DNA of 64,000 nucleotides from Streptomyces sp. NBC_01723 (GTDB lineage Bacteria > Actinomycetota > Actinomycetes > Streptomycetales > Streptomycetaceae): NCBI RefSeq assembly GCF_036246005.1, contig NZ_CP109171.1, positions 6,002,001 to 6,066,000 of the forward strand. The letters are read 5' to 3'. Shown one piece after another: positions 32,080 through 51,194 of the stretch. How positions within the stretch are numbered: position 1 is the stretch's first letter; every line of letters starts with the position of its first letter. Made by a program: the position numbers and the translations under genes. The notes beneath the pieces are model-generated. The model was not told where the DNA came from. It did not search any database and saw only the letters and a list, made by a program, of their open reading frames with translations.

Positions 32080-32166
32080 TTGCTGCCTCTCTGGGGCTAG
32101 GAGGACGTGCCCGCGTAGAGTGCGGTGAAGTCGTAGCCGGCAGGTCCGTTGTATCGAGGGATATCG

Positions 32167-35518: not shown

Positions 35519-35525
35519 GTGAGAG

Positions 35526-35554
35526 ATAGTATGGATGTGATCTGCGCAAATCAA
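35526..35554 (-). promoter_or_regulatory. Sigma70-type leaderless promoter of the PAPS-reductase-like gene
   Basis: Reading the minus strand: TTGATT (35554-35549), a 17-bp spacer, TACTAT (35531-35526), then seven bases to ATG 35518. Both hexamers match the principal sigma consensus well. The distance puts the transcription start at or next to the A of ATG; there is no Shine-Dalgarno. Confidence 0.7.
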
Positions 35555-36284: not shown

Positions 36285-36298
36285 GCATACCTTCCCCA

Positions 36299-36485
36299 CA
36301 CCGACGTTCCTGCCGAGTGACCGCCAGATGGGCGCTCCTCACCAGGCTGTCCGCAGAGATCCTAGGCGTGCCGGCAGGCACCCCAGTGCATCAGGCCGGA
36401 GGCCGTGGACGGCGCCGCCCCGCAAGCACGTTGCCCGGGCGGGAGGCCGGCCTCGGTTCAAGGCCGGCGCGATCGCCACGGGGGG
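36299..36485. other. Short non-coding gap
   Basis: There is nothing I can support between the HTH gene start and the end of the PLD gene. It may contain the HTH gene promoter and a terminator for the helicase-ATPase-PLD operon, but no strong hairpin was noticed. Confidence 0.3.
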
Positions 36486-37388
36486 TTAGGACAACTCCTG
36501 TCCGTGGCGGATTTCCCATGTCCCGACGTCGGTGTAGAAGCGGCCGAAGTACCGAAGCCACGCCGCGATGGTCTCGGTGGTCCTTCTGGCCTGTTCGTCC
36601 GTCATGCCTGTCTGCTCCTGCAGCGCATGCTGCAACTCCACGTTGCTCAGGCGGTCTCCAGCCACGAGCGCCTGAAGAGCAGGGATTTCCCGCAGGCGGC
36701 CTTCGATCACGTCCGAGAACTCCGTCTCGGACAAGCCTGCGGGCATGCCGAGAAGCGCGAGGTCCCGGAGGATGGCCGTTTCGACAGACCGCCCGAACTG
36801 TGCTCTCCCGCAGTAGTACGGGTAGATAGCCTCCGGGCGCCGTGTCACCGGGTACCAGCCCTGCAGGGCTTCCTCTCGGGGCTGGTCGGAGGCGGTCGGA
36901 CGGTGTTCCTTCAGTAGGTCGGCCTGCCTTCTCACCAGGTCGGCCATGTGGGGCGTCGCTTCGACCGCGCGGGCCTCGATCTCGGTGAGCACCCGGACGA
37001 CTTCCGGATGGGCCGCGGGCGCCTCCACCAGGATCTCGATGTTGGCGTTGGGGACGCGCCCGGTGGCTTTCCCTGTCAGGTTGGCGGACCCGATCAGGCA
37101 GCGCTCGCCGGTGAGGTAGAGCTTGGCGTGCAAGCTCGGGCACAGTGTGATGCGCAGCCGCTTGTCCTCCTCGGCGAGCTCGATGATCTCGGGATCGGAC
37201 ACCCCTGCCGCCACCTCCTCAGGGACCCAGCGTGTGATGCACTCGATGTCCTCAGCGGTGGCTGGGAGGGCGGACAAGGTGGCCGCCAGAACCTCTCGCT
37301 TGATGAAGGGCGCCACGAGGGTCACCTGCCCGTGGGCGCCCGCCATCAGTTCTTCGATCTGCCGCCAGATGTGGCCGGGCTCGGTCAC
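36486..37388 (-). CDS. PLD-superfamily nuclease-like protein (third gene of putative SspFGH-type operon)
   Basis: A 300-residue protein with one phospholipase-D active-site motif: LCPSLHAKLYLTGERCLIGSANLTG (H87, K89, S101, N103; the H-x-K...N layout). The preceding QVTLVAPFIKREVL strand-helix is typical of PLD nucleases such as those linked to restriction helicases. A single motif implies dimerisation. The C-terminal 150 residues are helical and unassigned. GTG 37388 overlaps the upstream gene stop by four bases. With the upstream GHKL ATPase and helicase it forms a tight three-gene operon; it is the probable DNA-cleaving subunit. My assignment to the reported SspFGH system is from gene content, not alignment. 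Confidence 0.82.
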   Translation of the reverse strand: MTEPGHIWRQIEELMAGAHGQVTLVAPFIKREVLAATLSALPATAEDIECITRWVPEEVAAGVSDPEIIELAEEDKRLRITLCPSLHAKLYLTGERCLIGSANLTGKATGRVPNANIEILVEAPAAHPEVVRVLTEIEARAVEATPHMADLVRRQADLLKEHRPTASDQPREEALQGWYPVTRRPEAIYPYYCGRAQFGRSVETAILRDLALLGMPAGLSETEFSDVIEGRLREIPALQALVAGDRLSNVELQHALQEQTGMTDEQARRTTETIAAWLRYFGRFYTDVGTWEIRHGQELS

Positions 37389-39271
37389 GCGCTGCCGGCC
37401 TTTCCGTCCACGAAGTCGCGGGCGTACCGGCCCCATTCGCGGCGCGCGTCCGCGATCCGCTCGCGGAGGTTGTCGGGGTAGGTCTCGTCCTCCATCCTGG
37501 CCCAGGAGAAGAGCAGCAGCTTGAAGGTCTCCGCGGCACGGTTGAGTCGGTTGCGCAGGTCGTTCGCGTCGGCGTCCTCGGGGATGTCTTCGAGGACTGC
37601 GATGAGCTGGGCGTGCAGCGGGTGTTTCTCGTTGAAGATCACCTGCAGCATGCCGGCCATGAGGTCGATGCTGAAGAAGGCGGAGGTGTCCTGGAAGCTA
37701 GAGATCCACCGCGCACGCAGATCCTTCTCCAGGGCCTCATCGACCATGGACTGGGCGGTGTCCTCGTCGAGGTGATGCCGCTGGGTGAGGGCCGCGACCT
37801 GTTCCTGCCGCTTGGCCTCGGTGGTCGTGCCCTCTTCCAGCTCGTCGGTCTTGCCGGTGTAGCCCTCCTCGCTGCGGCGCTTGACGGCATCCGTGGCCCT
37901 GGAGGCGGCGTCCTCGTCGTGCCGCTTCTTGCTCTTGCGGGTCCCGATCGTCTGCTGCTTCAGCTGGCGCCGGATGGCCGGCAGGAGCTTCTCTTCCAGG
38001 TAGAGCACGAGGTCGATGAGGGGAAGGCGCGGGTCGCCGAGGTCGGAAAGGCGCTCCTTGAACCCCTTGAAGGATTCGCCAGCCTCCGCGTGGGCCTTCC
38101 AGTCGAAGTGGGCCAGGGACGAGAAGACCGTGGCGCTCTGCTTGTTGTTCGTCACGCCGAAGATGGGGTCGAGGTCCGGCGGGAATTCCACCTCGATGCC
38201 CCACCACCGCTCCGTCGGGTCGTATCCGATTGCCCAGGACGCGTCGAGATCCAGCTCCCTGCGCTGCCGTACGAGCGAGATGCCGACGTTGCGCCTGGCG
38301 TGCTTGCCCCACGGAAGGATGCCGGAGTCCGTCGTACGGCTGATTCCATCCGGCCACGGGTGGCCTTCGACGTCGGCGCGGCGGGCCTCCGGGCGGGCGA
38401 TGGAGGCCCGGACGGTGATGTTGTGCTTCTTGCCTTCATGGATTACGGGGAACTGCGTCACGCCGGGCTCGGATTCACTGCCCATGGAGAAAGGCATGAA
38501 CATCGGCTTGTCCGAGAACGGCTTGTCGGTGGAGGTCGGCGCCATCAGGTACAGAGGGTCGTTGGGTACGGCGTGGTACTCGCCGTCAACGACCTTGCCC
38601 TCCCGGACGGGGGCCATCCGGATGTCGACACGTCCGGCCTGGAGGTAGTGTCGGTAGACCCGGCCGATCAGGTCGGCGGTGTTCTTCAGCGTGGCTGCGG
38701 CCCCGTACCAGTTGACCTTGTCCAGGTTGGTCCAGACGACGAGCGTGCCGGTGTCCCCGAGGCCCTCGCTCAGGTCGCGCCAGTAGTCCGGCAGCGGGGA
38801 GTGTTCAGGCTCGGGGACGTCGTCGATCTCTCCCTTCTCGATCTCTTCGAGGCTGAGGTAGGTGTGCATGGCGTTTCCCGCGCCGTTGGTCCAGGACCAG
38901 ACGTCGAGCCGGGTGCACTGGGACATGCTGGAGTTGGGCAGGCCCATGCCGAAGCGGCCGATGCGATCCGGGTCTGCCCCATCCCCGTCGCCGTACTTCA
39001 GGGCACGCCGCAGTTGCGGTACTTCCATGCCGTGGCCGTTGTCGAGGACCGCGATGGTCTCCACGCGGTGGCTGGTTCGGGAGCCGACCTGCACGGGGTT
39101 CTCGCAGGCGAAAACCTCCACGAGGGTGGCCTTGGCGTCGATGCTGTTGTCGATCAGTTCGGCGAGGGCGTAGGCGGTGTTCTTGTAGCCGCTGTCCCGC
39201 ATGGCCTTGACGGTCAGCTTAGGACTGACGATCCGGTAGTTGCTGCCGTCGTTGGTCACGCTGTCTCCCAT
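37385..39271 (-). CDS. GHKL (HATPase_c_3) ATPase (second gene of putative SspFGH-type operon)
   Basis: A 628-residue protein with an intact GHKL fold. It has the N-box YALAELIDNSIDA (about 34-46; Asn42 for Mg), DNGHGM (77-82), and the lid RIGRFGMGLPNSSMSQ (about 103-118), the MORC/MutL-like style. A middle transducer-like region contains NVGISLVRQRRELD and VTNNKQSATVF. The C-terminal part has a long charged helix (KRHDEDAASRATDAVKRRSEEG). It probably cycles between open and ATP-closed dimers on DNA. ATG 39271 overlaps the helicase stop by 16 nt, and the gene overlaps the PLD gene by four. Confidence 0.85.
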   Translation of the reverse strand: MGDSVTNDGSNYRIVSPKLTVKAMRDSGYKNTAYALAELIDNSIDAKATLVEVFACENPVQVGSRTSHRVETIAVLDNGHGMEVPQLRRALKYGDGDGADPDRIGRFGMGLPNSSMSQCTRLDVWSWTNGAGNAMHTYLSLEEIEKGEIDDVPEPEHSPLPDYWRDLSEGLGDTGTLVVWTNLDKVNWYGAAATLKNTADLIGRVYRHYLQAGRVDIRMAPVREGKVVDGEYHAVPNDPLYLMAPTSTDKPFSDKPMFMPFSMGSESEPGVTQFPVIHEGKKHNITVRASIARPEARRADVEGHPWPDGISRTTDSGILPWGKHARRNVGISLVRQRRELDLDASWAIGYDPTERWWGIEVEFPPDLDPIFGVTNNKQSATVFSSLAHFDWKAHAEAGESFKGFKERLSDLGDPRLPLIDLVLYLEEKLLPAIRRQLKQQTIGTRKSKKRHDEDAASRATDAVKRRSEEGYTGKTDELEEGTTTEAKRQEQVAALTQRHHLDEDTAQSMVDEALEKDLRARWISSFQDTSAFFSIDLMAGMLQVIFNEKHPLHAQLIAVLEDIPEDADANDLRNRLNRAAETFKLLLFSWARMEDETYPDNLRERIADARREWGRYARDFVDGKAGSA

Positions 39272-40884
39272 ACGTCTTCCCAGTTGGTGAATGCTTCTGC
39301 CACGTCGCCGAACCCGGGAAGCTCCGGGTTCACGACGGTGATGATTTCGCAGGTGTCAGTGCCGCCGGCCTTCGGGCCGCGGATGACGCGGCCGACCATC
39401 TGGCTGTACAGCACGAGGGACTTGGTCGGACGGGCGATCACTGCCGCGCTGGCCGCCGGTGCGTCGAAGCCTGTCGTCAGGACGCCGAAGTTGCACAGCA
39501 CCATGGGGCGCCGGCCGGACCCCTTGAACCGCGAGATGACCTGGCTGCGATGCCGAGGGGAGGACTCGCCCGTCACGAACTCGGCATCGAAGCCGGCAGC
39601 GGACAGCACGGCCGCGATGAGCCTGCAGTGGTCCACGGAAGCGGCGAACACCAGGATGCGCCGGTGCTGCTGCTGAAGCAGCTCCGTGATCGTCTGGACG
39701 ATCTTGAGGTTCCACTGCTCGTCGCCCGCGAGCTCGGCCATCATGCTGGCCGGGATGTCGAACGACCGCGCAAGGAGCTGCTGGTCCTGGGCAGACAGTT
39801 GCATGCCCGCCTCGGAGGCCACCGTCCGCATCAGCGGCTTGGCCAGGTAGCCCTGCTCGATCAGGGCCGTCACCGGGTTGGTGTAGCCCTCGATCTCCAG
39901 CATGACCTTCTGCCGGGAGAAGTAATCGGAAAGTTCCTCGTCCTTGGAGATGTCCGCCCACGTGCGTCCCGGAGTGGCGGTCAGCCCGAGCAGGCTCGCA
40001 TCGTGACGGATCGTCAGTTCGTCGACGACCCTCTGGAAGGTGGGGGCGATGATCTGGTGAGCCTCGTCGAAAACCGTCAGCGTGCTGCGTGCCGCGAGGG
40101 TGGCCAGAAACTGCGGGTCCGACTTGGCTGCCGAGACGGCCTTTTCCAGCCCGAGAACGACCAGCCCGTCGGTCATCTCCGCAAGGTCTGCGGGAGTGTT
40201 GCCCCATACCCGCAGCACGGGGAGCGGGCGGTCGCCGACCTTCGTCCAGGCGCGCTCGAACTCGGCGGCGGCCTGCTCCAGCAGCTCCTGCCCGTGGGCC
40301 AGCCACACCACCACGGTGGGCTCGTGCTGCCGCAGGTGATCGCAGATCAGGCTCATGCCCGTGCGTGTCTTGCCCACGCCTGTCGGAAGATGCAGCACCG
40401 TCCGCCGCGGCCCGTCATACAGCAGTTCCTTGACCCGGGCCGCCGCGTGACGCTGATGCGGGAACAAGCCGTACTCGGGAGCCGACTCCTGCTTGAACGC
40501 CGGAGGAAGGGACGGTACCCGGTCGATCGTGAAGCCGAAAAATTCCAGCAGTTCGCGCCGCTCGTCCGCCGTCCACTTCAGGCTCTGCAAGTAGTCCAGC
40601 GGCGGCTGCTCGTCGCCCACGGAGCCCAGGCGCTGCGCCAGCTCCGCCCGCTTGGGCCCCGGAACCAGGGCGATCAGAGCGGAGCGCTCAGCCTCGTCGG
40701 CGACCAGACGCTCGGCGTCGATGGCGATCGGGGCAACGGCCCGAAGACGGTCGTCTCCCGCTGCACCTCCCTCGATCAGATCGAGCAGAGCGCACAGCCG
40801 CTCGCCGACATGCCCCCGGATGTACGCCATCGGCGCATCCGCGAGGAGCGCCTTGAAAGACATCCCCGGTGACCACGTCGTCAC
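39256..40884 (-). CDS. DEAD/DEAH-box superfamily 2 helicase (first gene of putative SspFGH-type operon)
   Basis: A 542-residue helicase of the restriction type. Motif I is LHLPTGVGKTRTG, motif II FDEAH (about 272-276), motif III LGLTATPGR, and motif VI LYSQMVGRVIRGPKAGG. The segment VLCNFGVLTTGFDAP is motif V. The N-terminal 130 residues are unassigned. Start GTG 40884 has AGGTGAGG upstream; ATG 40863 (MSFKALL) is the alternative. The gene is divergent from sspA with a 470-nt promoter region between, so the effector operon can be regulated apart from the modification genes. Confidence 0.88.
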   Translation of the reverse strand: MTTWSPGMSFKALLADAPMAYIRGHVGERLCALLDLIEGGAAGDDRLRAVAPIAIDAERLVADEAERSALIALVPGPKRAELAQRLGSVGDEQPPLDYLQSLKWTADERRELLEFFGFTIDRVPSLPPAFKQESAPEYGLFPHQRHAAARVKELLYDGPRRTVLHLPTGVGKTRTGMSLICDHLRQHEPTVVVWLAHGQELLEQAAAEFERAWTKVGDRPLPVLRVWGNTPADLAEMTDGLVVLGLEKAVSAAKSDPQFLATLAARSTLTVFDEAHQIIAPTFQRVVDELTIRHDASLLGLTATPGRTWADISKDEELSDYFSRQKVMLEIEGYTNPVTALIEQGYLAKPLMRTVASEAGMQLSAQDQQLLARSFDIPASMMAELAGDEQWNLKIVQTITELLQQQHRRILVFAASVDHCRLIAAVLSAAGFDAEFVTGESSPRHRSQVISRFKGSGRRPMVLCNFGVLTTGFDAPAASAAVIARPTKSLVLYSQMVGRVIRGPKAGGTDTCEIITVVNPELPGFGDVAEAFTNWEDVWETA

Positions 40885-41354
40885 TGCCTCACCTGCCCCG
40901 CAGGCTCCAGCCCGCGCGCGTCCGTGGCCGGAACAGCTGTCGTCATCAACTTCCACCCCCAGTTCGAGCACGCCAAGCACCGCCCCAACGTGCGTCGTTA
41001 CAACGCTGCAGCGTGCGGACCACCCTAAACGGGGCCACTGACAACAGGTGCACCATCAGACGAAAAGCCCAGCCAGGAAGGGCATTTGCCCCCCGCTAGG
41101 CGACTCGTCGGGCCAGGATGAGGATCTTGCACGACTTGCGCGCAAAGCACCCTGAATAGAACAGTCGTTCGGTAAGCGGTGCACGACACCACGCGTTCGA
41201 GTGATTCGAGGAGTGGATCTCGGCTCGCGGCTAGGATCACGGCGTGCTCCTGGTGGAACCCCGGATGCAGGGGATGGTTTCCACCAGCAGTACATTGGTG
41301 TGCGACACGAGCGAGGCGGGGTGGCTGATGATGAACGGGCTAAATGGGCCGGAT
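40885..41354. promoter_or_regulatory. Divergent promoter region helicase operon / sspA
   Basis: This 470-nt gap must drive both the sspABCD operon and the effector operon. No clear consensus hexamers and no RNA gene were found. The frame upstream of sspA stays open to 41244, so part of the gap could be coding if a more distal start is used. Confidence 0.4.
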
Positions 41355-42506
41355 ATGTCCTACCTTGATTACAATGCCACCGCTCCGATCCGGCCTGAGG
41401 CTCTTGCAGCCGTCCTTGAGGCCATGAAGTCGGTTGGAAACGCCTCAAGCATGCATCAACCGGGGCGGCAGGCGGCTCATCGGGTCGATGTCGCCCGTCG
41501 GCAGCTAGCCGACCTCCTTGGCTGCTCGCCCGGCGAGATCATCTTCACATCCGGGGCGACCGAGGCGAACAACCTGGCCCTCCGCGCCGCGTTCACCGCC
41601 GGAAATCCCCTGGTCACCAGCCCTGTTGAGCACCCGGCTGTCCTAGAGACAGCCCGCGCGGTCACCGCCGAGAGTCCCGAGGATCTTGTGCTGCTCCCGG
41701 TCGGCGCCGACGGCCTGGTGGATCTCGGCGCCCTGGATCAGGTTTTCCCGGCACGCCGTGGGGGTGTGGTCTCCCTGATGGCGGCGAACAACGAGACCGG
41801 GGTCCTCACTGATCTCCGCGTCGCGGCCAAGGCGGCCCATGAAGCCGGTGCACTCGTACATACGGACGCCACGCAGATCATCGGCCGCCTCCCCATGGAC
41901 GTTGCTGAACTCGACGTCGACCTCTTGTCGCTGTCGGCCCACAAGTTTGGCGGCCCGCAGGGAGCCGGCGCCCTGTATGTACGGCGCGGGTCTCCACTCC
42001 CGCACCGACCACTCCTCGTGGGCGGCGGACAGGAGCGGGGCTGGCGGGCAGGCACGTTGAACGTGGCAGGGATTATCGGCATGGGAGCAGCGGCCGACGC
42101 CGCGCGCCGCGGTGTCGGTGAGGAGGCCGAGCGGATCGCGGCCCTGCGCGACCGCCTCGAAAGCCTCGTGACCGGTGCCCTGCCGGGCTGCCGTATTAAC
42201 GGCCGACGCGATCAGCGCCTGCCGGGCGTGACGAGCATCACCTTCCCGGGCCTGCCGGCGGATGCGGTCCTGGCGGCCATGCCCGAGGTCGCTGCCTCGG
42301 AGGGCAGCGCGTGCGCCTCCGGTGCTCCGACGCCGAGCCACGTGCTCCTGGCGATGGGCCTATCCCGGGACGACGCCGACAGCACGATCCGCTTCTCGCT
42401 GGGCTACGCCACCACGAATGCCGAGATCGAGAACGCCGCACATGCCGTCAAACGCGCCGCGACGCAGGTTCGTGCCGCGCTGGCCGAAGCCCACGGTCCT
42501 AGCTGA
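41355..42506 (+). CDS. sspA: Cysteine desulfurase SspA (DndA/IscS-like)
   Basis: A PLP-dependent enzyme that takes sulfur from cysteine and delivers it as persulfide for DNA backbone sulfuration. 383 residues from MSYLDYNATAPIRP. Motifs are FTSGATEANNLAL, PLP-contacting His93 in SPVEHPAV, Asp in VHTDATQ, the Schiff-base Lys197 in LSAHKFGGPQG, and the catalytic Cys320 on the mobile loop ASEGSACASGAPTPSHVL, in the SSGSAC(T/A)S style of DndA. The start is the ATG that matches the family N-terminus; in-frame ATGs at 41328 and 41331 behind GGGTGG are possible. First gene of the operon. Confidence 0.88.
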   Translation: MSYLDYNATAPIRPEALAAVLEAMKSVGNASSMHQPGRQAAHRVDVARRQLADLLGCSPGEIIFTSGATEANNLALRAAFTAGNPLVTSPVEHPAVLETARAVTAESPEDLVLLPVGADGLVDLGALDQVFPARRGGVVSLMAANNETGVLTDLRVAAKAAHEAGALVHTDATQIIGRLPMDVAELDVDLLSLSAHKFGGPQGAGALYVRRGSPLPHRPLLVGGGQERGWRAGTLNVAGIIGMGAAADAARRGVGEEAERIAALRDRLESLVTGALPGCRINGRRDQRLPGVTSITFPGLPADAVLAAMPEVAASEGSACASGAPTPSHVLLAMGLSRDDADSTIRFSLGYATTNAEIENAAHAVKRAATQVRAALAEAHGPS

Positions 42507-42564
42507 CCGTTATCCCGTTTACCACTTCGTTAGAGCAATCGCATTGGACACAGAGAGGTCCCGA

Positions 42565-43677
42565 ATGTCAGACAGCCGGCTTGGGGAAGCCGCCCATTTT
42601 GCCTTCGCGCGACACGAAACGTTCGCGCCCCGCTTCGGCTGGCTGCACAAGGCGTACATGCAGGTCAAACGCGACCAGGGTGCGTTTCTCGCGGACGACG
42701 CGCCGGTGTTGTTCGGCGTGGGCAAGAACATGGTCAACGCCATGCGCTACTGGTCGCGTGCGTTCAAGCTGACCCGCGAGCACTCGCCCGCGCAGCGCAC
42801 ACAGGCCAAGTTCTCCTATCCCACCTGGGAGGCCCGCTGGCTCCTCGACGAGGACGGAGCGGACCCGTATCTGGAGGAGAATGGCAGTCTGTGGCTGCTG
42901 CACTGGTGGCTGGTCTCTTCCCGCCCCGGGGCCAAGAGCCACGCGCCGGCCTGGTATACGGCCTTCCACCTGGCGCCGTTCTCCCGGTTTACGACCGCGG
43001 ACATGACGCAGGTGGTCACCCGGCATGTGAACTTCTCCTACGACAAGAGCCCGGAAGAGGCGTCGATCGTCCGGGACATCGACTGCATCACCAAGATGTA
43101 TGCGCGCAGCGCCCCGGAGAAGGCCGGCTCGCCGGGCAGCTACGAGGACCTGCTCGCCTGCCCCTTCCGTGACCTTGACCTGCTCACCTTCGTCGGGACG
43201 CGCGGCAAGCCCGAGTGGCAGTTCACCAGCGGGCACCGCACCTCGCTGCCCGCCCGGGTCCTGGCCTACGCCTGCCTGGACTACGCTGCCAAGTTCTCCC
43301 GCCAGGCCAACTCGATCTCCGTGGCCCGCCTCGCCAACGAGCCGGGCTCCCCTGGGCGCGCTTTCCGTGTTCGGGAGAACGAGATCGTCGTGGCGCTGCA
43401 GAAGATCGCCGCGGACCACCCGCAGCTCAACCTGACCGAGGCCGTGGGACAGCGCAGCCTCGCCTTCACGGCCGACCCTTTCGAGCTGGCCTGGGAAGTG
43501 CTGGACGAGCAGTACGACTTCGTCACCCGCCGTCCAGGCTTCCCCACCCGCGGGGAGTGGGCTGCCAAGTTTCCCGAGCTCGCCAAGGCCGAGCAGAAGG
43601 AACTCGCCACGAAGGCCACGGACGCCACCGAGGCGGCCGACACCACCGAGATGCTCTTTGCTGAGGAGACCGCGTGA
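42565..43677 (+). CDS. sspB: SspB, DUF4007 protein (DNA-nicking subunit of ssDNA phosphorothioation)
   Basis: A 370-residue DUF4007 protein. It shows the family opening FARHETFAPRFGWLHKAY, FGVGKNMVNAMRYWSRAF, GSLWLLHWWLVSS and FSRFTTADMTQVV. SspB homologues nick DNA to allow sulfur insertion on one strand. ATG 42565 follows GAGAGG. A short acidic tail (DTTEMLFAEETA) precedes a GTGA overlap with sspC. DUF4007 next to a cysteine desulfurase, a large P-loop ATPase and a PAPS-reductase-like enzyme is diagnostic for Ssp rather than Dnd. Confidence 0.88.
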   Translation: MSDSRLGEAAHFAFARHETFAPRFGWLHKAYMQVKRDQGAFLADDAPVLFGVGKNMVNAMRYWSRAFKLTREHSPAQRTQAKFSYPTWEARWLLDEDGADPYLEENGSLWLLHWWLVSSRPGAKSHAPAWYTAFHLAPFSRFTTADMTQVVTRHVNFSYDKSPEEASIVRDIDCITKMYARSAPEKAGSPGSYEDLLACPFRDLDLLTFVGTRGKPEWQFTSGHRTSLPARVLAYACLDYAAKFSRQANSISVARLANEPGSPGRAFRVRENEIVVALQKIAADHPQLNLTEAVGQRSLAFTADPFELAWEVLDEQYDFVTRRPGFPTRGEWAAKFPELAKAEQKELATKATDATEAADTTEMLFAEETA

Positions 43678-46600
43678 CCACCGCAACCCCCACGCGGACC
43701 CCGAGCAGCCCGGCGAGCTCCGCCCCGCAGTTCCCCGCCGGCATCGAACTTGTCGGCTCCCAGATGCGCTCGACCAACCTTGAGCGCGATGTCGAGGACG
43801 CCCTGCACGACCCCTACGTCGGCGCCCGGGCCGTCGATGTTCTGGAGCGCATCGCGAGCGCCCTGGCCGACCAACGCCGTACCCGCGCGTGGTCGTTCAC
43901 CGGCCCCTACGGCTCCGGCAAGTCCACTCTGTCCAACATCATCGACGCTCTGCTGGGCCGGGATGCCAAGCGGCGCAGCGAGGCCGAGCGCATCCTCGAA
44001 GAGGCCAGCCCCGCGCTCGCCCAACGCCTTGCCGCCGCACGCGACGCCATCGCACCCGAGGGATTTCTCGGCGGCGTGGCCACCGCGCGCCGCGAACCCG
44101 TCGTCGCCACGCTCTCCCGCGCCCTGCACACCGCGGCGGCGCGACGCTGGGGTAAGCGTGTCCCGAGGGCCATCGCCGCCGCCCTGCAGGCGTGCGCCGA
44201 CCCGGACCGCGCCGGGGCCAAGGAGATTCTCGGCGCCGTCACGGCTCTGACCGCAGACGGTCAGCAGCCTCTGCTCCTCGTCATCGACGAGTTCGGCAAG
44301 ACGCTGGAACACCTCGCCGGTCACAACGAGTTCGCTGACGCCCAGCACGACCTGTTCCTGCTGCAGGAACTCGCGGAGAAGGCGGCTGGCCCCAACGGGC
44401 TGCCCGTCTACCTGATGACCTTGCAGCACCTGTCGTTCATGGACTACGCCTCACGGTCCAGCGAACTCAAGACCCGGGAATGGGCCAAGATCCAGGGGCG
44501 TTTCGAAGACATCACCTTCGTCCCCCACCACGGCGACTCCCTGCACCTGCTGCGCCGCCGCCTCGACCGCTCGGCTGTCAACTCGGCGGGGCAGGCCCTG
44601 ATCGCCGCGTCGGCCGAGGCGTCCGCGGACATCTGGACACAGCACGGGCTCGGTGTTCTGGCCGAACTCGGCCCCGCCCACTTCGCGGACCTCTACCCGC
44701 TGCACCCGATCACGGCCCTGGCCGCGCCGATCCTTGCCGCTCAGATCGGCCAGCACGACCGCAGCCTGTCGGGCTTCCTCAACAGCGGCGAGCCCAACAC
44801 CGTCCACCACTCGCTGGCAAGGCACAGCAACCGGGAGGCGGAGCACGCCAGCACGGTGCGACTGCCGCAGCTGTGGGATTACTTCCTCAACTCCGGGCGC
44901 ACCACCCTGCTCGCCTCCGCCAACGCGAGCCGGTGGATCGAGGTCGACTCGCGTATCCGGGACGCCAACGGCCTCGCGGATGCCGACCAGGACGTGCTGA
45001 AGACTATCGGCGTCCTCAACCTGATCGACTCCGACGGGGCGCTCAGCGCCACCGCGCCGATGATTCACTTCGCGCTCCACGACCCCACCGACGTGGCCGA
45101 CCCCGACGCTTTCACGGCGCTCGAAGAGCGGCTCGCCGACCTCGTCAGCCGGGGCTTTGTGGTCCACCGCGAGTTCAGCGGTGAATACCGAGTCTGGCAG
45201 GGCACGGACGTCGACATCGACGGCCGGCTCAAGGAAATCATCAGCCGTTTCGATGATGCCTCGGTCATCAACCGGCTCGGCAGCCTCGTCCCGCAGGCAT
45301 TCGTGGCCGGCCGCCACAGCCAGGTCACCGGCATGATGCGTGTGTTCTACACCGCGGTCAGCGGCCCGGAGACCAAGTCCGTCGCCGCTCCGGACGAGCT
45401 GAAGGAGCCTGCCGACGGCCTCGTCGTCTTCCACCTCGGCACCGACGCTGACCGGCCCACTGTCCACTCGCCCCTGCCGGTACTCGTCGGCACCACCCCC
45501 AACCCCGACGTGGTACTCAGCACGGCCACCTACCTCGTCGCGCTGAAGGAACTCAGCACCGAGCAGGACATCGACCACGTCGCCCGGCGGGAAGTCATCG
45601 AGCGGCTCGTGCAGGCCGAGGCCGAGCTGCTGGAACTCCTGCAGGACGCCTTCTACCCACCGTCCTCCGAAGCGTCCTGGAGCCTGTGGCACACCGGAAT
45701 CGCCCCCGGCGAAGAACCCGCTGCATCCGGCCTGACGGCCCGCAGCCTGAGCGGCTTGGTGTCCCTCGCCTGCGAGTCGGTGTACCCGCACACCCCGCAC
45801 ATCCGCAACGAGATGCTCGGCCGCCACGTCCTGACTAGCCAGGCCGCCCAGGCCCGCGGCGTACTGCTGACGGCCATGCTCTCCGCCTCGGGCGAGGAGA
45901 ACCTCGGCCTCATCGGGTACAAGGCCGAACGGGCCATCTACAGCGGTGTCCTGGCCTACCTCGGCCTGCACCGCGAAAACGGGGTAGCCCAGGCCGAGAG
46001 CCAGCAAGAGAGCCTGCTCCCGTACGGCTTCTCCCCGCCCGGCGAGGGACACGAGCACGCCCAGCCCGCCTGGAACGCCCTCAACGAAGTACTGACCAGT
46101 GCCACCGAGCGGGTCAGCGTCGAAGAGATCATCCGTGTCCTGATGAGCCCACCGTTCGGACTCAAGGCCGGCGTGATCCCGGTCTTCCTGATCCCCGCCC
46201 TGGTCATCCGCCGCCACGACATCGCCCTGTTCGAAGAAGGCACCTACCTTCCCCGGCTGACCATCGACGTGGTCGAGCGACTCGTCAAGGGCCCGGCACG
46301 CTTCTCGGTGAAGTACACGCCAGCCGGAGGCGGCCAGCGCGGCAGCATCATCAAGAGGCTGATGGTCTCGCTCGGCGTCGAGGCACCGCGCTCCAAGGCC
46401 CTGCGCAACCCCGACCTCCTCTCCGTAGCCAGCGCCCTGATCGTGCGTGTGGCCGACCTGCACAAGTACGCCCGCACCACCAAGAACATCTCCGCCGACG
46501 CCCGCACCGTGCGCACTACGATCGCCAGTGCCCTGGATCCCGACGATCTGATCTTCCATGCGCTGCCGAAGGCGCTCGGTCTGCCCGAGATCCCGGCCCG

Positions 46601-47252
46601 CACCCGCGCCGACACGGAAGCGGCGAACACCTACGTCGAACGACTCACCGCGGCGGCCGACGAACTCGTGGCCATCGACAGCAAGCTGCGGGCCGAAGTA
46701 GTCAGTGTCCTCGCCCAGGAGTTCCGCCTGCCGGCCGAACTGCCGGAGCTGCGCGCACAACTCGCTGCCCGGCTTCGCGGCTTCGCCGGCGCGGTACTGA
46801 CTCCGGAACTGCGCGGCTTTGTCGACTTCGTCCTCAGCGACAGCCTTGAGGACGACGACTGGCTCGAGCCCATCGTCGTGCGCCTGACCAACTCGGCCCT
46901 CGGTGACTGGGACGACCACGAGGCCAAGGTCTTCCCGCAGAAGGCCCGGTCGATGGCTGCGGCCCTCGACCGGGTCGGGCACCTGCACCACGCCGGGAAC
47001 GACGTCCGAGGGCGGGAAGAGAAACTCGACGCGCAGTTGTTGACCTTGACTGACAGCGCCGGCGTGGAACAACGCACCCTGATCTACGTGCCGGAACAGG
47101 CCCGCACCGAGGCCAACAGCCTCGCGGCCGACGTCCTGAAGCAGGCCGAAAAGGCTCTCGGACCGGACGGAGCGAGGATCCTGCTCGCGGCCCTTGCCCA
47201 GCGCGTGACCGATGCCGCGACAGCGGCGAGTGAAAGGAAGGCACAGGGATGA
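43674..47252 (+). CDS. sspC: SspC, large P-loop ATPase of the Ssp phosphorothioation complex
   Basis: A 1192-residue ATPase. Walker A is FTGPYGSGKSTLSN (about 75-88) and Walker B is PLLLVIDEFGKTLEHL (about 199-214). The rest is a long helical protein without other recognisable domains. It is thought to power DNA handling for sulfur insertion. GTG 43674 overlaps the sspB stop; the 3' end overlaps sspD by four bases. Codon use is as G+C-biased as in core genes, so the operon is well adapted to a Streptomyces host. Confidence 0.85.
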   Translation: MTTATPTRTPSSPASSAPQFPAGIELVGSQMRSTNLERDVEDALHDPYVGARAVDVLERIASALADQRRTRAWSFTGPYGSGKSTLSNIIDALLGRDAKRRSEAERILEEASPALAQRLAAARDAIAPEGFLGGVATARREPVVATLSRALHTAAARRWGKRVPRAIAAALQACADPDRAGAKEILGAVTALTADGQQPLLLVIDEFGKTLEHLAGHNEFADAQHDLFLLQELAEKAAGPNGLPVYLMTLQHLSFMDYASRSSELKTREWAKIQGRFEDITFVPHHGDSLHLLRRRLDRSAVNSAGQALIAASAEASADIWTQHGLGVLAELGPAHFADLYPLHPITALAAPILAAQIGQHDRSLSGFLNSGEPNTVHHSLARHSNREAEHASTVRLPQLWDYFLNSGRTTLLASANASRWIEVDSRIRDANGLADADQDVLKTIGVLNLIDSDGALSATAPMIHFALHDPTDVADPDAFTALEERLADLVSRGFVVHREFSGEYRVWQGTDVDIDGRLKEIISRFDDASVINRLGSLVPQAFVAGRHSQVTGMMRVFYTAVSGPETKSVAAPDELKEPADGLVVFHLGTDADRPTVHSPLPVLVGTTPNPDVVLSTATYLVALKELSTEQDIDHVARREVIERLVQAEAELLELLQDAFYPPSSEASWSLWHTGIAPGEEPAASGLTARSLSGLVSLACESVYPHTPHIRNEMLGRHVLTSQAAQARGVLLTAMLSASGEENLGLIGYKAERAIYSGVLAYLGLHRENGVAQAESQQESLLPYGFSPPGEGHEHAQPAWNALNEVLTSATERVSVEEIIRVLMSPPFGLKAGVIPVFLIPALVIRRHDIALFEEGTYLPRLTIDVVERLVKGPARFSVKYTPAGGGQRGSIIKRLMVSLGVEAPRSKALRNPDLLSVASALIVRVADLHKYARTTKNISADARTVRTTIASALDPDDLIFHALPKALGLPEIPARTRADTEAANTYVERLTAAADELVAIDSKLRAEVVSVLAQEFRLPAELPELRAQLAARLRGFAGAVLTPELRGFVDFVLSDSLEDDDWLEPIVVRLTNSALGDWDDHEAKVFPQKARSMAAALDRVGHLHHAGNDVRGREEKLDAQLLTLTDSAGVEQRTLIYVPEQARTEANSLAADVLKQAEKALGPDGARILLAALAQRVTDAATAASERKAQG

Positions 47253-48082
47253 CCGACGGAGCCGACACCCAGAAGGTCCGGCACGTTCTCGGAATCTCCG
47301 GCGGAAAGGACTCCTCAGCGCTCGCCGTCTACATGCGCAACCGAGTCCCGGAGATGGAGTACTTCTTCTGCGACACCGGCGCCGAACTCCCGGAAACCTA
47401 CGAGTACCTCAACCGGCTTGAGGCCGCCCTCGGCAAGTCCATCGTGCGACTGAACGCCGACCGCGACTTCGACCACTGGATGGAGGTCTACCAGGGCACC
47501 CTGCCCAGCCCCCAGATGCGCTGGTGCACCAAGAACCTCAAGATCAAGCCCCTGGAAGACTGGGTCGGCGACGACAAGGTCATCTCCTACGTCGCCATCC
47601 GGGCCGACGAGAACCGCATCGGCTACGTCAGCACCAAGCCGAACATCGATGCCGTCTTTCCCTTCCGAGAGGAAGGCATCGACAAGGAAGGCGTCATGCG
47701 CATCCTCGACGAGGCAGGCATCGGCCTGCCCGGCTACTACGAGTGGCGCACTCGCTCGGGATGCTACTTCTGCTTCTTCCAGCGCAAGCACGAGTGGGTC
47801 GGCCTCAAGGAACGCCACCCCGACCTGTACGCCAAGGCCGTGGAGTACGAGGACAAGGTCCGGTACCGACACACCGCCATGAAGGGCCGCAACTACACCT
47901 GGTCGCAAGGCGAGTCGCTCCCGGAGCTCATAGAGCGCAAGGACGAGATCGAGGCCAAGCACCAGGCGGCCCTTGAGCGCGCGGCCAAGCGCATCAAGCC
48001 CAACCGCCCCCTGCTGGAAGTTCTCTCCGACGCTCTCGACTCCGACGATGACGAGGCCGGCTGCTCCGTCTGCCACCTCTGA
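47249..48082 (+). CDS. sspD: SspD, PAPS-reductase-like ATP pyrophosphatase
   Basis: A 277-residue enzyme equivalent to DndC. The PP-loop is LGISGGKDSSALAV (S17-S23), followed by FFCDTGAELPETYEYL, the substrate-binding MRWCTKNLKIKPLEDW, and Cys pairs in RSGCYFCFFQRKHEW and AGCSVCHL that can hold an Fe-S cluster. It activates the DNA backbone phosphate using ATP. ATG 47249 overlaps the sspC stop (ATGA). It is the last gene of the operon and is followed by a strong terminator. Confidence 0.9.
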   Translation: MTDGADTQKVRHVLGISGGKDSSALAVYMRNRVPEMEYFFCDTGAELPETYEYLNRLEAALGKSIVRLNADRDFDHWMEVYQGTLPSPQMRWCTKNLKIKPLEDWVGDDKVISYVAIRADENRIGYVSTKPNIDAVFPFREEGIDKEGVMRILDEAGIGLPGYYEWRTRSGCYFCFFQRKHEWVGLKERHPDLYAKAVEYEDKVRYRHTAMKGRNYTWSQGESLPELIERKDEIEAKHQAALERAAKRIKPNRPLLEVLSDALDSDDDEAGCSVCHL

Positions 48083-48097
48083 CGCGAAACCACACAC

Positions 48098-48132
48098 ACA
48101 GCGGCCCCAGCAGCACGAGCTGGGGCCGCTGT
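48098..48132 (+). terminator. Terminator of the sspABCD operon
   Basis: A perfect 14-bp stem (48098-48111 with 48119-48132) and 7-nt loop, 15 bases after the sspD stop and followed by TGCTTTCC. Confidence 0.9.
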
Positions 48133-48706
48133 TGCTTTCCTGACTTCCGATCGAGCTCGTCTCGCTTGCGGTTGTGGCCTTGCCCAGACTCTGTCTCAGA
48201 CCTCGTGAAGGAGCGCAGCGCACTTGCCCACGACAAGTCGAGGTACTTCGCGATGGCGTGACGCAACGTCACATGTGGGGCATGATGGGCGCATGCCGCT
48301 CCTGCTACCTCTGTCGACCACTCATATGCCACCATGAGGACGGCTCACCCACAGGCGTGGAACGGTGACGGAGAGAAACCGAGCATATGGAAACTCGCGG
48401 GTCTTTGATGCGGCACGGATGTCAGCTTCTCGGTTCCTCAGTGAGTCCAGTCAGGGGGCTCCATATTTCTTTGTATCAGTGCCCAGGCAGCTGGAGCTGC
48501 CCGAGATCAGGTGACTTCTCAGTTGCGTCGCGCACGTCCTTGATCAGCGTGCCGAGTTCGAGGGCTCAATCTGTTTTCTCTGTACTGTCATCGCGCTTCG
48601 CGAATCAATTACATGATCGTTGAGTCGAAATGCAGGTTGGCAGGTACCTCCCCAGGTGATGCCGCATCTGATCTGAACGAACCTGCTGAACAAAGAGGGG
48701 CTACGC
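48133..48706. promoter_or_regulatory. Intergenic region between sspD and sspE
   Basis: 574 nt without a supported gene. It is visibly less G+C-rich than its neighbours, above all 48410-48640, and must include the sspE promoter, since the sspD terminator separates the operons. Several short open frames lack ribosome binding sites. No RNA structure was recognised. Confidence 0.4.
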
Positions 48707-51169
48707 ATGCCAACGCAGGCCAAGGAAATATTCGAGGCGCAGAGCAAGAGTGTTCGCGAGCTGCTTTCTGACAACGGCCTGGGCCTTTACCTGCCGCCCT
48801 ACCAGCGTCCGTACGGCTGGGGCAAGGACAAGGTCGAGAAATTGCTCGACGACACACTGCATGGCCTCAAGAATCTCAGTAAGGCGCCGGACAGCTTCAC
48901 CTTCTTGGGGACCGTCATCACCATCCATGATGTCAACCATGTCACTGTGAAGCCCATCGTCAAGTCCGAGGTCCCGGCCAAGGTTCTTACCGTGATCGAT
49001 GGGCAACAGCGTTTGTCGAGCCTTCTAATCCTGCTGGTCGGCCTGCACAACCTCATTCGTCAGCGTGCATGGAAGGTCTTCAAGGGCAAGACGCCGGATC
49101 CGACCGACAGTGCTCGGACTCACCTTTACTCGGAAACGAGCGACATGCTGCAGATGCTCGCGGCAGCGTTCTACGAGCGAAAAAACTACGGAATCAAGCC
49201 GCCGATCTACCCGCGCCTCATCCGAGCCTTCGTGGATCAGTGGGCCAGGGACGAGAAGCTCAAGAAGTATGAGTCGCCGATCGCCAACCTTATCTACCAG
49301 TACTCATTGCTAGCCGATAGTGAGCCGGCAACTTCTAGGCCGACCGACTTCAGGCCGACGGCGCGACAGAACGCGGGTGAAGGCGAAGGCGATCTCATCA
49401 AGAGGTACAACGAGATCCGTATGGGGTTGACCAAGCTGTCGCAGCGAAAATCCATCGAGGAGCTGGAGGATCTGCCGCCTCTAGCAACCCTTGCTACCAA
49501 CATCGAGTTCCAGCGTGCGCTCTTCAACCACGAACTCGACCCCGAGCTCTGCGCCTGGCTGGGGGAGTTGCAAGACGAGCCCGCAGCTGAGCTGATGCGA
49601 CTCGTCATGTTTGCCGCCTATGGCTTGAACCGTATTGCTCTGACGGTCGTGCAAGGCAAGGACGAGGACTACGCCTTCACGATCTTCGAGTCGTTGAATA
49701 CCACGGGCGAGCCTCTGACTGCCTTCGAGACCTTCCTCCCTCGGGTGGTGATGGCAGAGAAGATTCAGGACTACCAGGACTCGGACGCACACGCGTACAT
49801 GAAGGCGGTTCAGGGCTACCTGGACCGCTTCGACGTCGGAGACAAGCTTCAGAACGCAACTCGAGACCTGCTGGTCGCTTTCGCGTTGGCAGAGACTGGG
49901 GAGAAGCTCTCCAAGCGCCTCCCGGATCAGCGGGTCTACATGCGCGATACCTTTGAGCGCCACAAGGACTCGGCCGGTGATCGAAGCGCGTACTTGCGCC
50001 ACCTATGCGACACTGCGGCCTTTGTCGGGAATGCCTGGGAGCCCGCGAATAACTCTTCTCGCGCGCTACCCGGGCTAGAAGCGACCGCCATGACGGACAC
50101 CGTGAAGTTGTGTCTATCCTTTCTCAATTCGCTCAACCACACCATTGCCATCGCGCCGCTCGTGCGCTTTTACTCCGAGGCTGTCCACGCGGACGAAGGG
50201 GAAGCGAGGGAAAAGCGCATCGCCGAGTTCGAGAAGGCGATCAAGGCAATCACTGCCTTCACGGTCTTCTGGCGAGCAACCCGCCGCGGCACGGGCAACA
50301 TCGACAGCCAGTACCGTGCGGTCATGGCTGGGGTGGACTCGCTCACGGGCATGGGACCGCTCGCTCGCCAGTGGGCAGTGCCCAGTGCATCGAAGGCTGA
50401 TCCGATCGTCGACGCCGAGGCGCTGAAGAAGGAACTTGCGGCGCGCTTGTCGCACTCTAAGCACGGCGCCATCCCAAACTTGCCCTCGTTCCTGGCAGAT
50501 GCTTCCGCGCTGCCGCTCTACAAAATTGCCCGTCCGCTGACGCGTTTCCTTCTTCTGGCTGCGTATCACGACACAATTGAAGATCCGGAGAATCCGGGGC
50601 TGATCATCCAAGGCAAGGCGGGGGTCGCGTCATGCTTCACCGCAGACGGTTGGGATGACGAGAAGCACCTCACGATCGAACACATCGCACCACAGCAGGC
50701 CACGAGTGGGTGGGATGAGGAGTTCTACAGCGAGAAGGAGACCGTCCACAAGCTGGGCAATCTGGTCCTGGCACCGGGCGCTGCCAACACGTCCCTCAGC
50801 TCGCGGCCTTGGACCGAGAAGAAGGTCCTGTACGCGGCACTCGGTGCCTCGACGGCCGACGATGCCAAGACCATCCTCAACAGTTCTGGCTTCACGTTCG
50901 CGCAGACGACTGAAGATCTAGCGTCCCTGTCGCGCTACCTCCCGCACCTGCGGGCACTGGGTCAGCGTGAGGACGAGTGGAATCCGACGTTCATGGATCA
51001 GCGTGCTGACGTCCTCCTGCGTCTGGCCTACACGCGACTCAAGGGCTGGCTCGGTCTGGAGCTGTCTGACTCCAGCAGTGATCAGGTGGTCCAGGTCGAG
51101 GATGTGGAGATCGAGAGCGATGAGCTCGACGAGAGTGAGGATGCCGCGGGAGCGGTTGGAACGGCGTAA
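48707..51169 (+). CDS. sspE: SspE, phosphorothioate-sensing DUF262/HNH nuclease
   Basis: An 820-residue protein. The N-terminal DUF262 (GmrSD-N-like ParB-fold) NTPase has LPPYQRPYGWGKDKVEKLL (about 29-47), VLTVIDGQQRLSSLLIL with DGQQR at 98-102, and FTIFESLNTTGEPLTAFE. The C-terminal DUF1524-type HNH domain has LTIEHIAPQQ (His659) and VHKLGNLVLAPGAAN. SspE binds phosphorothioated self DNA, which stimulates its NTPase, and nicks phage DNA. ATG 48707 has GAGGGG upstream. Codon use is less G+C-biased than in sspABCD (many GAA, AAA, ATT codons), which suggests a separate, later acquisition. Confidence 0.87.
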   Translation: MPTQAKEIFEAQSKSVRELLSDNGLGLYLPPYQRPYGWGKDKVEKLLDDTLHGLKNLSKAPDSFTFLGTVITIHDVNHVTVKPIVKSEVPAKVLTVIDGQQRLSSLLILLVGLHNLIRQRAWKVFKGKTPDPTDSARTHLYSETSDMLQMLAAAFYERKNYGIKPPIYPRLIRAFVDQWARDEKLKKYESPIANLIYQYSLLADSEPATSRPTDFRPTARQNAGEGEGDLIKRYNEIRMGLTKLSQRKSIEELEDLPPLATLATNIEFQRALFNHELDPELCAWLGELQDEPAAELMRLVMFAAYGLNRIALTVVQGKDEDYAFTIFESLNTTGEPLTAFETFLPRVVMAEKIQDYQDSDAHAYMKAVQGYLDRFDVGDKLQNATRDLLVAFALAETGEKLSKRLPDQRVYMRDTFERHKDSAGDRSAYLRHLCDTAAFVGNAWEPANNSSRALPGLEATAMTDTVKLCLSFLNSLNHTIAIAPLVRFYSEAVHADEGEAREKRIAEFEKAIKAITAFTVFWRATRRGTGNIDSQYRAVMAGVDSLTGMGPLARQWAVPSASKADPIVDAEALKKELAARLSHSKHGAIPNLPSFLADASALPLYKIARPLTRFLLLAAYHDTIEDPENPGLIIQGKAGVASCFTADGWDDEKHLTIEHIAPQQATSGWDEEFYSEKETVHKLGNLVLAPGAANTSLSSRPWTEKKVLYAALGASTADDAKTILNSSGFTFAQTTEDLASLSRYLPHLRALGQREDEWNPTFMDQRADVLLRLAYTRLKGWLGLELSDSSSDQVVQVEDVEIESDELDESEDAAGAVGTA

Positions 51170-51194
51170 CGCCACGGGCCGGTTGGAACGGCGT
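51153..51194. repeat. 15-bp direct repeat at the sspE 3' end
   Basis: CGGTTGGAACGGCGT occurs at 51153-51167, inside the last codons and stop of sspE, and again at 51180-51194 at the edge of the IS remnant. This is compatible with a duplication made when the mobile element inserted or was deleted. Confidence 0.7.

Follow-up and report, generated by a model that had tools for sequence, protein, structure and literature searches.

A divergent helicase-GHKL ATPase-PLD nuclease operon as a candidate second effector beside an SspABCD-SspE phosphorothioation locus in Streptomyces

Introduction

Is SspE the only effector that works with the phosphorothioate (PT) mark at a Streptomyces ssp locus? As a system, SspABCD-SspE is already known and is an ordinary bacterial sulfur-DNA defence; in studied systems, SspA-D place single-stranded PT at 5'-CCA. 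A sequence-only reading of the 64,000-nt stretch of Streptomyces sp. NBC_01723 analysed here (the window) had described a complete SspABCD-SspE locus. While SspABCD and SspE were correctly recognised, a more regular partner was overlooked, namely a divergent operon encoding a helicase, a GHKL ATPase and a phospholipase-D-fold nuclease (HEL, GHKL and PLD; together, the triad). We consider it probable that the locus combines one PT writer with two restriction effectors, SspE and HEL-GHKL-PLD.

Results

The writer genes lie on the plus strand and comprise sspA (41355..42506, cysteine desulfurase, 383 aa), sspB (42565..43677, DUF4007 protein, 370 aa), sspC (43674..47252, P-loop ATPase, 1192 aa) and sspD (47249..48082, PP-loop/PAPS-reductase-like sulfurtransferase, 277 aa), with 4-nt overlaps at sspB/sspC and sspC/sspD. 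They are followed on the same strand by sspE (48707..51169), which encodes an 820-aa GmrSD-type GTPase/HNH nickase effector. All five genes and their coordinates were correctly called in the sequence-only reading. The best PADLOC model for each product is the corresponding Ssp model: 426 bits for SspA (versus 392 for DndA), 412 for SspB, 1381.5 for SspC, 400 for SspD and 1097.5 for SspE. SspB also matched its solved relative 6JUF (576 bits) and Pfam DUF4007 (300 bits), SspA matched Aminotran_5, and SspE matched the C-terminal domain of S. scabiei SspE (7DRI) at 974 bits over 493 residues. The proposed profile check for DUF4007 and DUF262/DUF1524-type domains returned DUF4007 and GmrSD_N/GmrSD_C in Pfam, alongside PAPS_reduct. 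The claim that catalytic motifs are intact held for SspA (SAHKFGG and SEGSACASG), SspC (Walker A, GPYGSGKS), SspD (SGGKDSS) and SspE (DGQQR at 98-102 and HIAPQ at 659). The locus thus holds an SspA-type cysteine desulfurase, a DUF4007 SspB, an adjoining SspC P-loop ATPase and SspD PP-loop enzyme, and an SspE with DGQQR and a DUF1524/HNH end.

SspE had been proposed to sit behind a terminator and its own promoter, to differ in codon use and to be inherited separately. Directly after sspD, a GC-rich hairpin (48083..48150, plus strand) folds at -33.3 kcal/mol (z -5.55) and is a probable terminator or attenuator; the hairpin is real, but its T tail is weak and a simple terminator scan did not list it. 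Despite the 624-nt gap between sspD and sspE, separate promoter control gained no support from a sigma-70-type promoter scan of 40900-51600, which gave 0 sites (0.8 expected). Codon use differs in part, with a GC3 of 0.763 for sspE (GC 0.600) versus 0.876-0.899 for sspB, sspC and sspD, but sspA is low too (0.781).

Separate inheritance is supported. SspE was found in only 3 of 199 Streptomyces genomes. Of the 12 sspABCD loci in this sample, 3 have SspE in their genome, while the triad is present at 10. When the window was compared with G060 and with G188, SspE was 90% identical in both pairs, SspC 53% and SspB 56%, indicating that SspE moves separately; in G188, SspE lies ~100 kb away from sspABCD. 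In G184 and G077, where SspC shares 90-91% identity with that of the window, no SspE match was found at E 1e-20. As judged from these comparisons, SspE is an exchangeable add-on rather than a fixed partner, at least in this Streptomyces sample.

Just upstream of sspA and divergent to it, a minus-strand operon of overlapping genes occupies 36486-40884; it does not figure in the finding of the sequence-only reading. Its first gene, HEL (39256..40884, minus strand, 542 aa), encodes a RadD/SauUSI/PbeA-like SF2 helicase with ResIII and Helicase_C domains and the motifs GVGKT, DEAH, TATP and QMVGRVIR. By sequence, its top match in the PDB is RadD (6JDE), followed by SauUSI (7CLG), while its best PADLOC match is PbeA at 77 bits, over the helicase part only. 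GHKL (37385..39271, minus strand, 628 aa) shares a 16-nt overlap with HEL and is predicted to be a MORC/MutL-fold ATPase, with fold matches to MORC3, SMCHD1, MORC4 and MutL over about residues 1-450, a span that we take to cover the S5 domain. The operon thus has the MORC/paraMORC composition, in which a protein with GHKL and S5-type domains is encoded together with a helicase and a nuclease. PLD (36486..37388, minus strand, 300 aa) overlaps GHKL by 4 nt and combines a single HKD motif with a helical C-terminal part, with fold matches to SauUSI, Nuc, BfiI and NgoAVII. Between HEL and sspA, whose starts were chosen from orthologs, lie 470 bp (40885..41354) that presumably hold a divergent promoter, although the sigma-70-type scan found none there. 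Initial searches used longer frames, with sspA from 41244, sspB from 42559, HEL from 40980 and PLD from 37436.

Four accessory genes lie beyond the operon. A TIGR04096 "DNA phosphorothioation-associated putative methyltransferase" (32149..33609, plus strand, 486 aa) scored 509 bits (cut-off 150). The neighbouring 282-aa protein (33680..34528, plus strand), also found near four other Streptomyces ssp loci, had no family match in Pfam, PADLOC, NCBIfam or PHROGs at E 0.001. A second PP-loop/PAPS-reductase-like protein (34625..35554, minus strand, 309 aa, motif SYGGGVQST) shares 24% identity with SspD across 235 columns and recurs near 7 of 11 other Streptomyces sspABCD loci, including one that lacks the triad (G171). 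An HTH protein (35637..36299, minus strand, 220 aa; HTH_17 below cut-off) is present in four of nine other triad genomes (G184, G077, G099 and G100).

Full-length GHKL orthologs (at least 50% identity) were found in 10 of the 199 Streptomyces genomes, and all 10 lie a few kb from sspABCD and divergent to it. The G184 match includes one TGA, which by predicted frames is the gene end. Among the weaker, mostly partial Streptomyces matches listed, just three are beside ssp genes, each as a second GHKL gene after sspD.

A wider survey covered the best 80 of 256 GHKL relatives, from many phyla (7 of the 80 loci are contigs already in the Streptomyces sample), and neighbourhoods were searched with purpose-built models of chosen families. 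Within this best 80 of 256, the helicase adjoins GHKL at all 80 loci and PLD is present at 66; at least one of sspB, sspC and sspD lies within 10 kb at 74 and at least two at 72, with 1.1-6.3 kb (median 2.9) from GHKL to the nearest ssp gene. Relative to ssp, the triad is on the opposite strand on the HEL side at 32 loci and on the far side at 9, while 33 have it on the same strand; the order sspA-B-C-D-HEL-GHKL-PLD occurs at L079, L093, L103, L109 and L113. S. scabiei 87.22 (L036) carries the triad beside sspABCD, and part of the surveyed loci have the TIGR04096 methyltransferase. GHKL is also encoded on 13 plasmid records; all four examined have DUF4007 and SspC-type genes within ~18 kb, one of them from a spirochaete (34% identity), and on pAtCFBP7129b one ssp locus holds, in addition to HEL-GHKL, an FtsK gene flanked by hypothetical genes.

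Across 58 loci, distance correlations (rho) were 0.81-0.86 within the triad, 0.88-0.93 within sspBCD and 0.59-0.71 between the two sets, values that partly reflect shared host ancestry; the GHKL-SspC correlation falls to 0.49 within 32 actinobacterial loci. In G099, sspA-D are 91-97% identical to those of the window, yet GHKL is 68% and PLD 57% identical. By these comparisons, triad and writer also recombine apart.

Six of the 80 loci lack visible sspBCD, and in each the contig breaks off near one side of the operon. Five begin <2 kb from HEL; the sixth (L065) ends 1.1 kb past PLD, but has ~8 kb upstream without ssp. DUF4007 is found elsewhere in the record for three of the six. Since G200, G202 and G204 gave neither DUF4007 nor a cyanobacterial SspC, and for SspD no score above the 35 bits that control genomes reach too, orphan triads that lack a writer may exist. 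The cyanobacterial drafts G202 and G204 have another PT writer, DndC above the curated cut-off, on contigs other than the HEL-GHKL contig; a search of G200 for DndC found none.

PLD is absent from 14 of the 80 loci and, by model, from two of the four examined plasmid loci. At one of these 14 (L082), an HNH_4 protein precedes HEL; close relatives of it are present at L080 and L086, shorter relatives at L085 and L094, and candidate ORFs of the same size at L089, L100, L101 and L111; L091 and L108 carry SspE, and L078 carries a DndB-like protein. Both triad-less Streptomyces sspABCD loci (G025 and G171, their PbeA proteins 66% identical) carry PbeA-PbeC, in G025 in the slot of the triad. In G254, from the same phylum, PbeA-PbeC follows sspD, while a three-sequence model found PbeC at 1 of the 80 triad loci. 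At the G294 sspABCD locus, the stretch covered shows no triad and no Pbe, and the G377 contig is cut at sspD.

Discussion

From the genes, predicted folds, motifs and linkage observed here, we infer that the triad depends on PT and has antiphage activity, as a further PT-dependent restriction branch. SspA-D would place single-stranded PT marks on host DNA; SspE, the exchangeable add-on, would act as the known PT-triggered GTPase/nickase, and HEL-GHKL-PLD would be a second, more constant effector relying on the same mark. In the proposed order of steps, the helicase translocates along DNA and the MORC/MutL-like ATPase closes around it as a clamp, linking nuclease action to PT status or to single-strand discontinuities; DNA failing this check would then be nicked by the PLD protein, by analogy with the action of DndFGH/SspFGH on unmarked DNA. 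In some cyanobacteria, an HNH protein probably takes over the nicking role. We lean only slightly towards PT sparing DNA from the triad rather than triggering it.

The triad might instead belong to the writer, with the helicase and MORC-like clamp helping SspB, SspC and SspD to place or repair PT while the nuclease processes intermediates. Its regular linkage to sspBCD and the five loci in single-operon order are consistent with such a role, and SspB nicks DNA according to a passage of PMC8092258, so strand repair could be needed. We nevertheless regard this role as unlikely, because Vibrio anguillarum sspBCD with iscS yielded PT in E. coli JM109 (same source, in part), sspABCD occurs without the triad in G025, G171, G254 and G294, and the Pbe restriction module replaces the triad at two Streptomyces loci.

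A reading of the triad as a separate restriction system, merely sharing defence islands with ssp, would fit the general clustering of defence genes, the TIGR04096 methyltransferase at part of the loci, the three drafts with the operon in which no ssp gene was found, and the similar operons in methylation-type restriction-modification described in sections of PMC2292703. However, sspB, sspC or sspD is found a few kb from every one of the 10 Streptomyces orthologs and from 74 of the best 80 relatives, in three arrangements, whereas a random position in an 8-Mb genome would be equally close ~0.15% of the time, making independence very unlikely. Finally, only SspABCD-SspE might matter, with its neighbours irrelevant cargo; SspE is intact here and is characterised in close relatives (PMC9646914), but with SspE in just 3 genomes among those of the 12 Streptomyces sspABCD loci and the triad at 10 of these loci, this idea is scarcely credible. 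The two-effector reading remains the one we prefer.

The locus resembles SspABCD-SspE of Vibrio, E. coli 3234/A and Streptomyces in its five proteins, their motifs and the order A-B-C-D then E, but differs in the extra divergent three-gene operon and in the hairpin-containing gap before sspE. SspE structures from S. scabiei (C-terminal domain) and S. yokosukanensis are reported in part of PMC9646914. PbeABCD (DndCDEA-PbeABCD, in archaea and bacteria) shares with the triad the match of HEL to PbeA and the occurrence of Pbe at two triad-less Streptomyces ssp loci, once in the same slot. However, PbeA is a single protein that unites PLD, ResIII and helicase (PMC6459918, in part), while the triad has its PLD and helicase as separate genes, with HEL matching the helicase part of PbeA only, and its ATPase is GHKL rather than the SMC-like PbeC; we therefore rejected assignment to PbeABCD. 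PLD showed no significant similarity to PbeA profiles (hhalign probability 1.3%), which gives no support for descent of the triad from Pbe.

SspFGH, which is compatible with SspE (PMC8092258, in part), acts with SspABCD as a restriction partner of several genes, as the triad would, but SspH has an FtsK/SpoIIIE-like C-terminus; this assignment was rejected, as the three triad proteins gave no FtsK Pfam match at E 0.001. Also rejected were an MZA system (MzaB 69 bits versus a curated cut-off of 850) and DISARM (PLD versus DrmC 21 bits, curated cut-off 133). PADLOC searches of the 46 rows of set A4 at E 0.001 gave solely MzaB (46) and TmtA (1), not the SMC-like PbeC. SauUSI is a single polypeptide with an SRA domain (PMC12707154, in part) and, unlike the triad, is without a GHKL ATPase. 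In openly available full texts, none of the matches listed connects a module of GHKL, helicase and PLD with Ssp or PT, and PMC10853773 has 0 matches each for GHKL, MORC, PLD, DISARM and phospholipase.

In composition, the triad resembles the MORC/paraMORC operons of Iyer et al. 2008, which in parts of that paper (PMC2292703) join a GHKL ATPase to an SF2 helicase and a nuclease, including HKD/PLD, and for which a DNA-looping clamp model is given. Nitrococcus mobilis, a species in its Fig. 2, is the source of triad locus L067. The difference is that the paper treats methylation-type restriction-modification; its text contains none of "phosphorothio", "Dnd", "PAPS" and "desulfurase". On balance, we lean towards the MORC-like ATPase, helicase and swappable nuclease forming a widespread additional class of PT-dependent restriction, in which the clamp would check backbone chemistry, not methylation. 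If so, bacterial MORC relatives would gain a defined epigenetic partner and a testable function, and could serve as a model for eukaryotic MORC silencing ATPases. The triad could also explain what works with the PT mark where an sspABCD genome is without SspE; to the restriction branches named in part of a 2025 review (dndFGH with sspFGH, sspE and pbeABCD; PMC12707154), it would add one tied to sspABCD in many phyla.

Association of the triad with sspABCD in Streptomyces

We compared the distribution of sspABCD, whose products write the phosphorothioate (PT) mark on DNA, with that of the triad, the divergent operon (window 36486-40884, minus strand) encoding an SF2 helicase (HEL), a MORC/MutL-fold ATPase (GHKL), and a PLD-family nuclease (PLD). 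Among 199 Streptomyces genomes, 17 carry a total of 19 DUF4007 genes, of which 12 sit in sspABCD loci like that of the window; around the other seven, eight models detect the DUF4007 gene alone. Full-length GHKL orthologs (identity of at least 50%) are present in 10 of the 199 genomes, and all 10 occupy the divergent slot at one of the 12 sspABCD loci.

Many weaker GHKL matches were obtained, and just three of them adjoin ssp genes, these being second-copy GHKL genes 3' of sspD in genomes G184 (L003:6299-8305, plus strand; HATPase_c_3, MzaB-like), G077 (L005:12415-14121, minus strand), and G113 (L012:14460-16202, plus strand). This second GHKL gene is possibly another interchangeable effector. 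A related ORF of ~162 aa comes next after it in both G184 and G077.

Association beyond Streptomyces

A scan with the GHKL alignment, in which each species was represented by a single genome, gave 256 relatives, and we examined the best 80, seven of which duplicate, judging by length, contigs of the Streptomyces sample and some of which are closely related to each other. Neighbor HMMs were made from the Streptomyces members and then widened. HEL adjoins GHKL in all 80 loci (fragmented in L076 and L100), and 66 of the loci have PLD. One or more of sspB, sspC, and sspD lies near GHKL in 74 of these best 80, and at least two in 72, with the nearest being 1.1-6.3 kb away; the 74 linked loci fall into three orientation classes (32, 9, and 33 loci). 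Reading phyla from names, the 80 span actinobacteria, alpha-, beta-, and gammaproteobacteria, cyanobacteria, Gemmatimonadales, Rhodothermales, Holophagales, Anaerolineae, Blastopirellula, Latescibacterota, and Poribacteria.

Of 346 genomes sampled across the phylum, three carry full-length GHKL (the window, G459, and G318, whose contig starts within sspC), all ssp-linked. DUF4007 was found in seven, including the window and G459. Elsewhere, G254 carries sspABCD with PbeA-PbeC, parts of the PT-linked restriction system PbeABCD; the sspABCD locus of G294 has neither the triad nor Pbe within the stretch examined; the G377 contig ends at its sspABCD; and G471 and G263 gave weak ssp matches only.

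Thirteen plasmid records carry a GHKL protein, and the four that were opened, one of them from a spirochaete (34% identity), all have DUF4007 and SspC-type genes within ~18 kb, with the PLD model matching two. On pAtCFBP7129b (L129, L125), a single locus holds cysteine desulfurase, DUF4007, ATPase, and PAPS-reductase genes together with HEL-GHKL, as well as an FtsK-type gene and hypothetical neighbors resembling SspFGH.

Loci lacking ssp genes

The six of the 80 loci without sspB, sspC, or sspD could possibly include true orphan triads lacking any PT writer, which would weigh against PT dependence. Five of their records (L097, L102, L105, L110, and L112) begin less than 2 kb from HEL, and the sixth (L065) stops 1.1 kb past PLD, with ~8 kb upstream free of ssp genes. 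DUF4007 was found elsewhere for three of the six ssp-less records. In the three orphan candidates, drafts G200, G202, and G204, neither DUF4007 nor a convincing SspD was found, and a search with cyanobacterial SspC, which had no positive control, gave no match. Two of the three nonetheless hold another PT writer: DndC scored above its curated cut-off in the cyanobacterial drafts G202 (698 bits; L135, G202:C151) and G204 (two pieces, 423 and 307 bits; L136 and L137), in each case away from the contig that carries HEL-GHKL, while none was found in the 2.3-Mb draft G200. These two DndC findings weigh in favor of PT dependence, whose likelihood is left unchanged once they are set against the possible orphans, and the HEL-GHKL module may pair with Dnd too.

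Replacement by Pbe and exchange of the nuclease

Both Streptomyces sspABCD loci without the triad (2 of 12; G025 and G171) carry PbeA and PbeC. The Pbe genes occupy the triad's slot in G025 (PbeA, 593 bits; PbeC, 181 bits) and lie ~6 kb downstream of sspD in G171, where PbeA is 66% identical to that of G025 and PbeC was assigned via a blastp cluster. PbeC was detected in one of the 80 triad loci, at the edge of L059, using a model from three sequences at 60 bits that may overlook distant PbeC.

PLD is missing from 14 of the best 80 loci. In PLD-less L082, an HNH_4 protein is encoded ahead of HEL; L080 and L086 have proteins closely related to it, those of L085 and L094 are related but shorter, and PLD-less L089, L100, L101, and L111 have ORFs of the same size. 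The corresponding gene is SspE in L091 and L108 and a DndB-like protein in L078, and the records of L105 and L112 begin shortly ahead of HEL.

Distance correlations over the 58 loci in which all six genes are present were 0.81-0.86 among the triad genes, 0.88-0.93 among sspB, sspC, and sspD, and 0.59-0.71 from one group to the other; for the 32 actinobacterial loci, they were 0.49 for GHKL-SspC and 0.65 for HEL-SspC. The triad and sspBCD are two modules, associated yet recombining.

The sspABCD-sspE genes and the inheritance of SspE

The positions and identities that the sequence-only reading had assigned to the five ssp genes (window 41355-51169, plus strand) all agreed with the best PADLOC matches (SspA, 426 bits; SspB, 412; SspC, 1381.5; SspD, 400; SspE, 1097.5), and the domain search it had suggested returned DUF4007 and two GmrSD domains from Pfam. 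The sspB-sspC and sspC-sspD pairs overlap by 4 nt. Window SspE aligns over 493 residues (974 bits) with 7DRI, the solved C-terminal domain of S. scabiei SspE, and over residues 4-785 of its 820 with 6JIV, the solved S. yokosukanensis SspE (species as given in excerpts of PMC9646914). The terminator proposed 3' of sspD corresponds to a strong hairpin (z -5.55). A promoter scan ahead of sspE, where the reading had placed a promoter of its own, found none, and the distinct codon use ascribed to sspE was borne out in part, its GC3 being low (0.763) but that of sspA being low too (0.781).

The suggestion that SspE is inherited separately held within the 199 Streptomyces genomes when presence and identity were compared. 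At E 1e-20, SspE was found in three (the window genome, G060, and G188); in G060 and G188 alike, identity to the window is 90% for SspE, 53% for SspC, and 56% for SspB, and in G188 SspE lies ~100 kb away from sspABCD. G184 and G077, whose SspC proteins are 90-91% identical to the window's, had no SspE match at this threshold, nor did G113, the other genome with a second GHKL gene. SspE was seen in the flank of 13 of the best 80 triad loci, a lower bound since the flank often stops ~1 kb beyond sspD.

Other genes at ssp loci

Upstream in the window are a TIGR04096 PT-associated methyltransferase and a 282-aa protein without a family (32149-34528), followed by a second PP-loop/PAPS-reductase-like protein 24% identical to SspD (34625-35554). 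The latter gene recurs near 7 of the 11 other Streptomyces sspABCD loci, including triad-less G171, and the TIGR04096, 282-aa, HTH, and second PP-loop genes form a set recurring in many actinobacterial loci. An 1807-aa protein (26147-31570) combines a weakly sacsin-like N-terminus with a NO VEIN domain at the C-terminus, and the corresponding neighborhood of G077 holds a copy with 49% identity. Downstream, a PDC-S18 protein (52481-53155; 332 bits) covers only profile positions 90-322 of 365, and because the upstream frame has stops and relatives are ~295-350 aa, the 5' part of this gene looks to have been lost or to be out of frame. Other ssp loci contain DndB-like proteins (PF14072; L019:15137-16207, L078:6955-8319, L070:7025-8320) and, 3' of sspD in G121, an Mrr-type nuclease gene (L014:6209-7267).

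Proposed function and relation to known systems

For relatives it is established that the SspA-D writer marks a single strand and that SspE is triggered by the PT mark (PMC8092258, PMC9646914). We propose that the triad would act as an NTP-driven restriction enzyme set consisting of a motor, an ATP-gated clamp, and a nuclease, with predicted active-site residues that include the N-box E38 of GHKL, H87 and K89 of PLD, and the Walker A lysine of HEL; a 2008 paper (PMC2292703) proposes that GHKL proteins of this kind form loops in the DNA lying between recognition sites and cleavage sites. The mark recognized by the triad is probably PT, since PT writers are its regular neighbors among the modeled genes, it occupies the place held at other loci by Pbe, whose defense requires PT (PMC6459918, in part), and two of three ssp-less drafts have dnd. 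The same study counts 320 of 553 PbeAC pairs as solitary; writerless triads seem rarer in our sample, which is biased, and such scarcity, tentatively, would fit a module harmful to PT-less cells.

Taken alone, the five ssp genes are one more instance of a known system, the Ssp genes themselves having been described already. The PT restriction branches named in a 2025 review are dndFGH/sspFGH, sspE, and pbeABCD (PMC12707154), and among the matches listed by a full-text literature search, none links Ssp with a GHKL/helicase/PLD module. The operon type itself may already be drawn in a figure of the 2008 MORC paper (PMC2292703).
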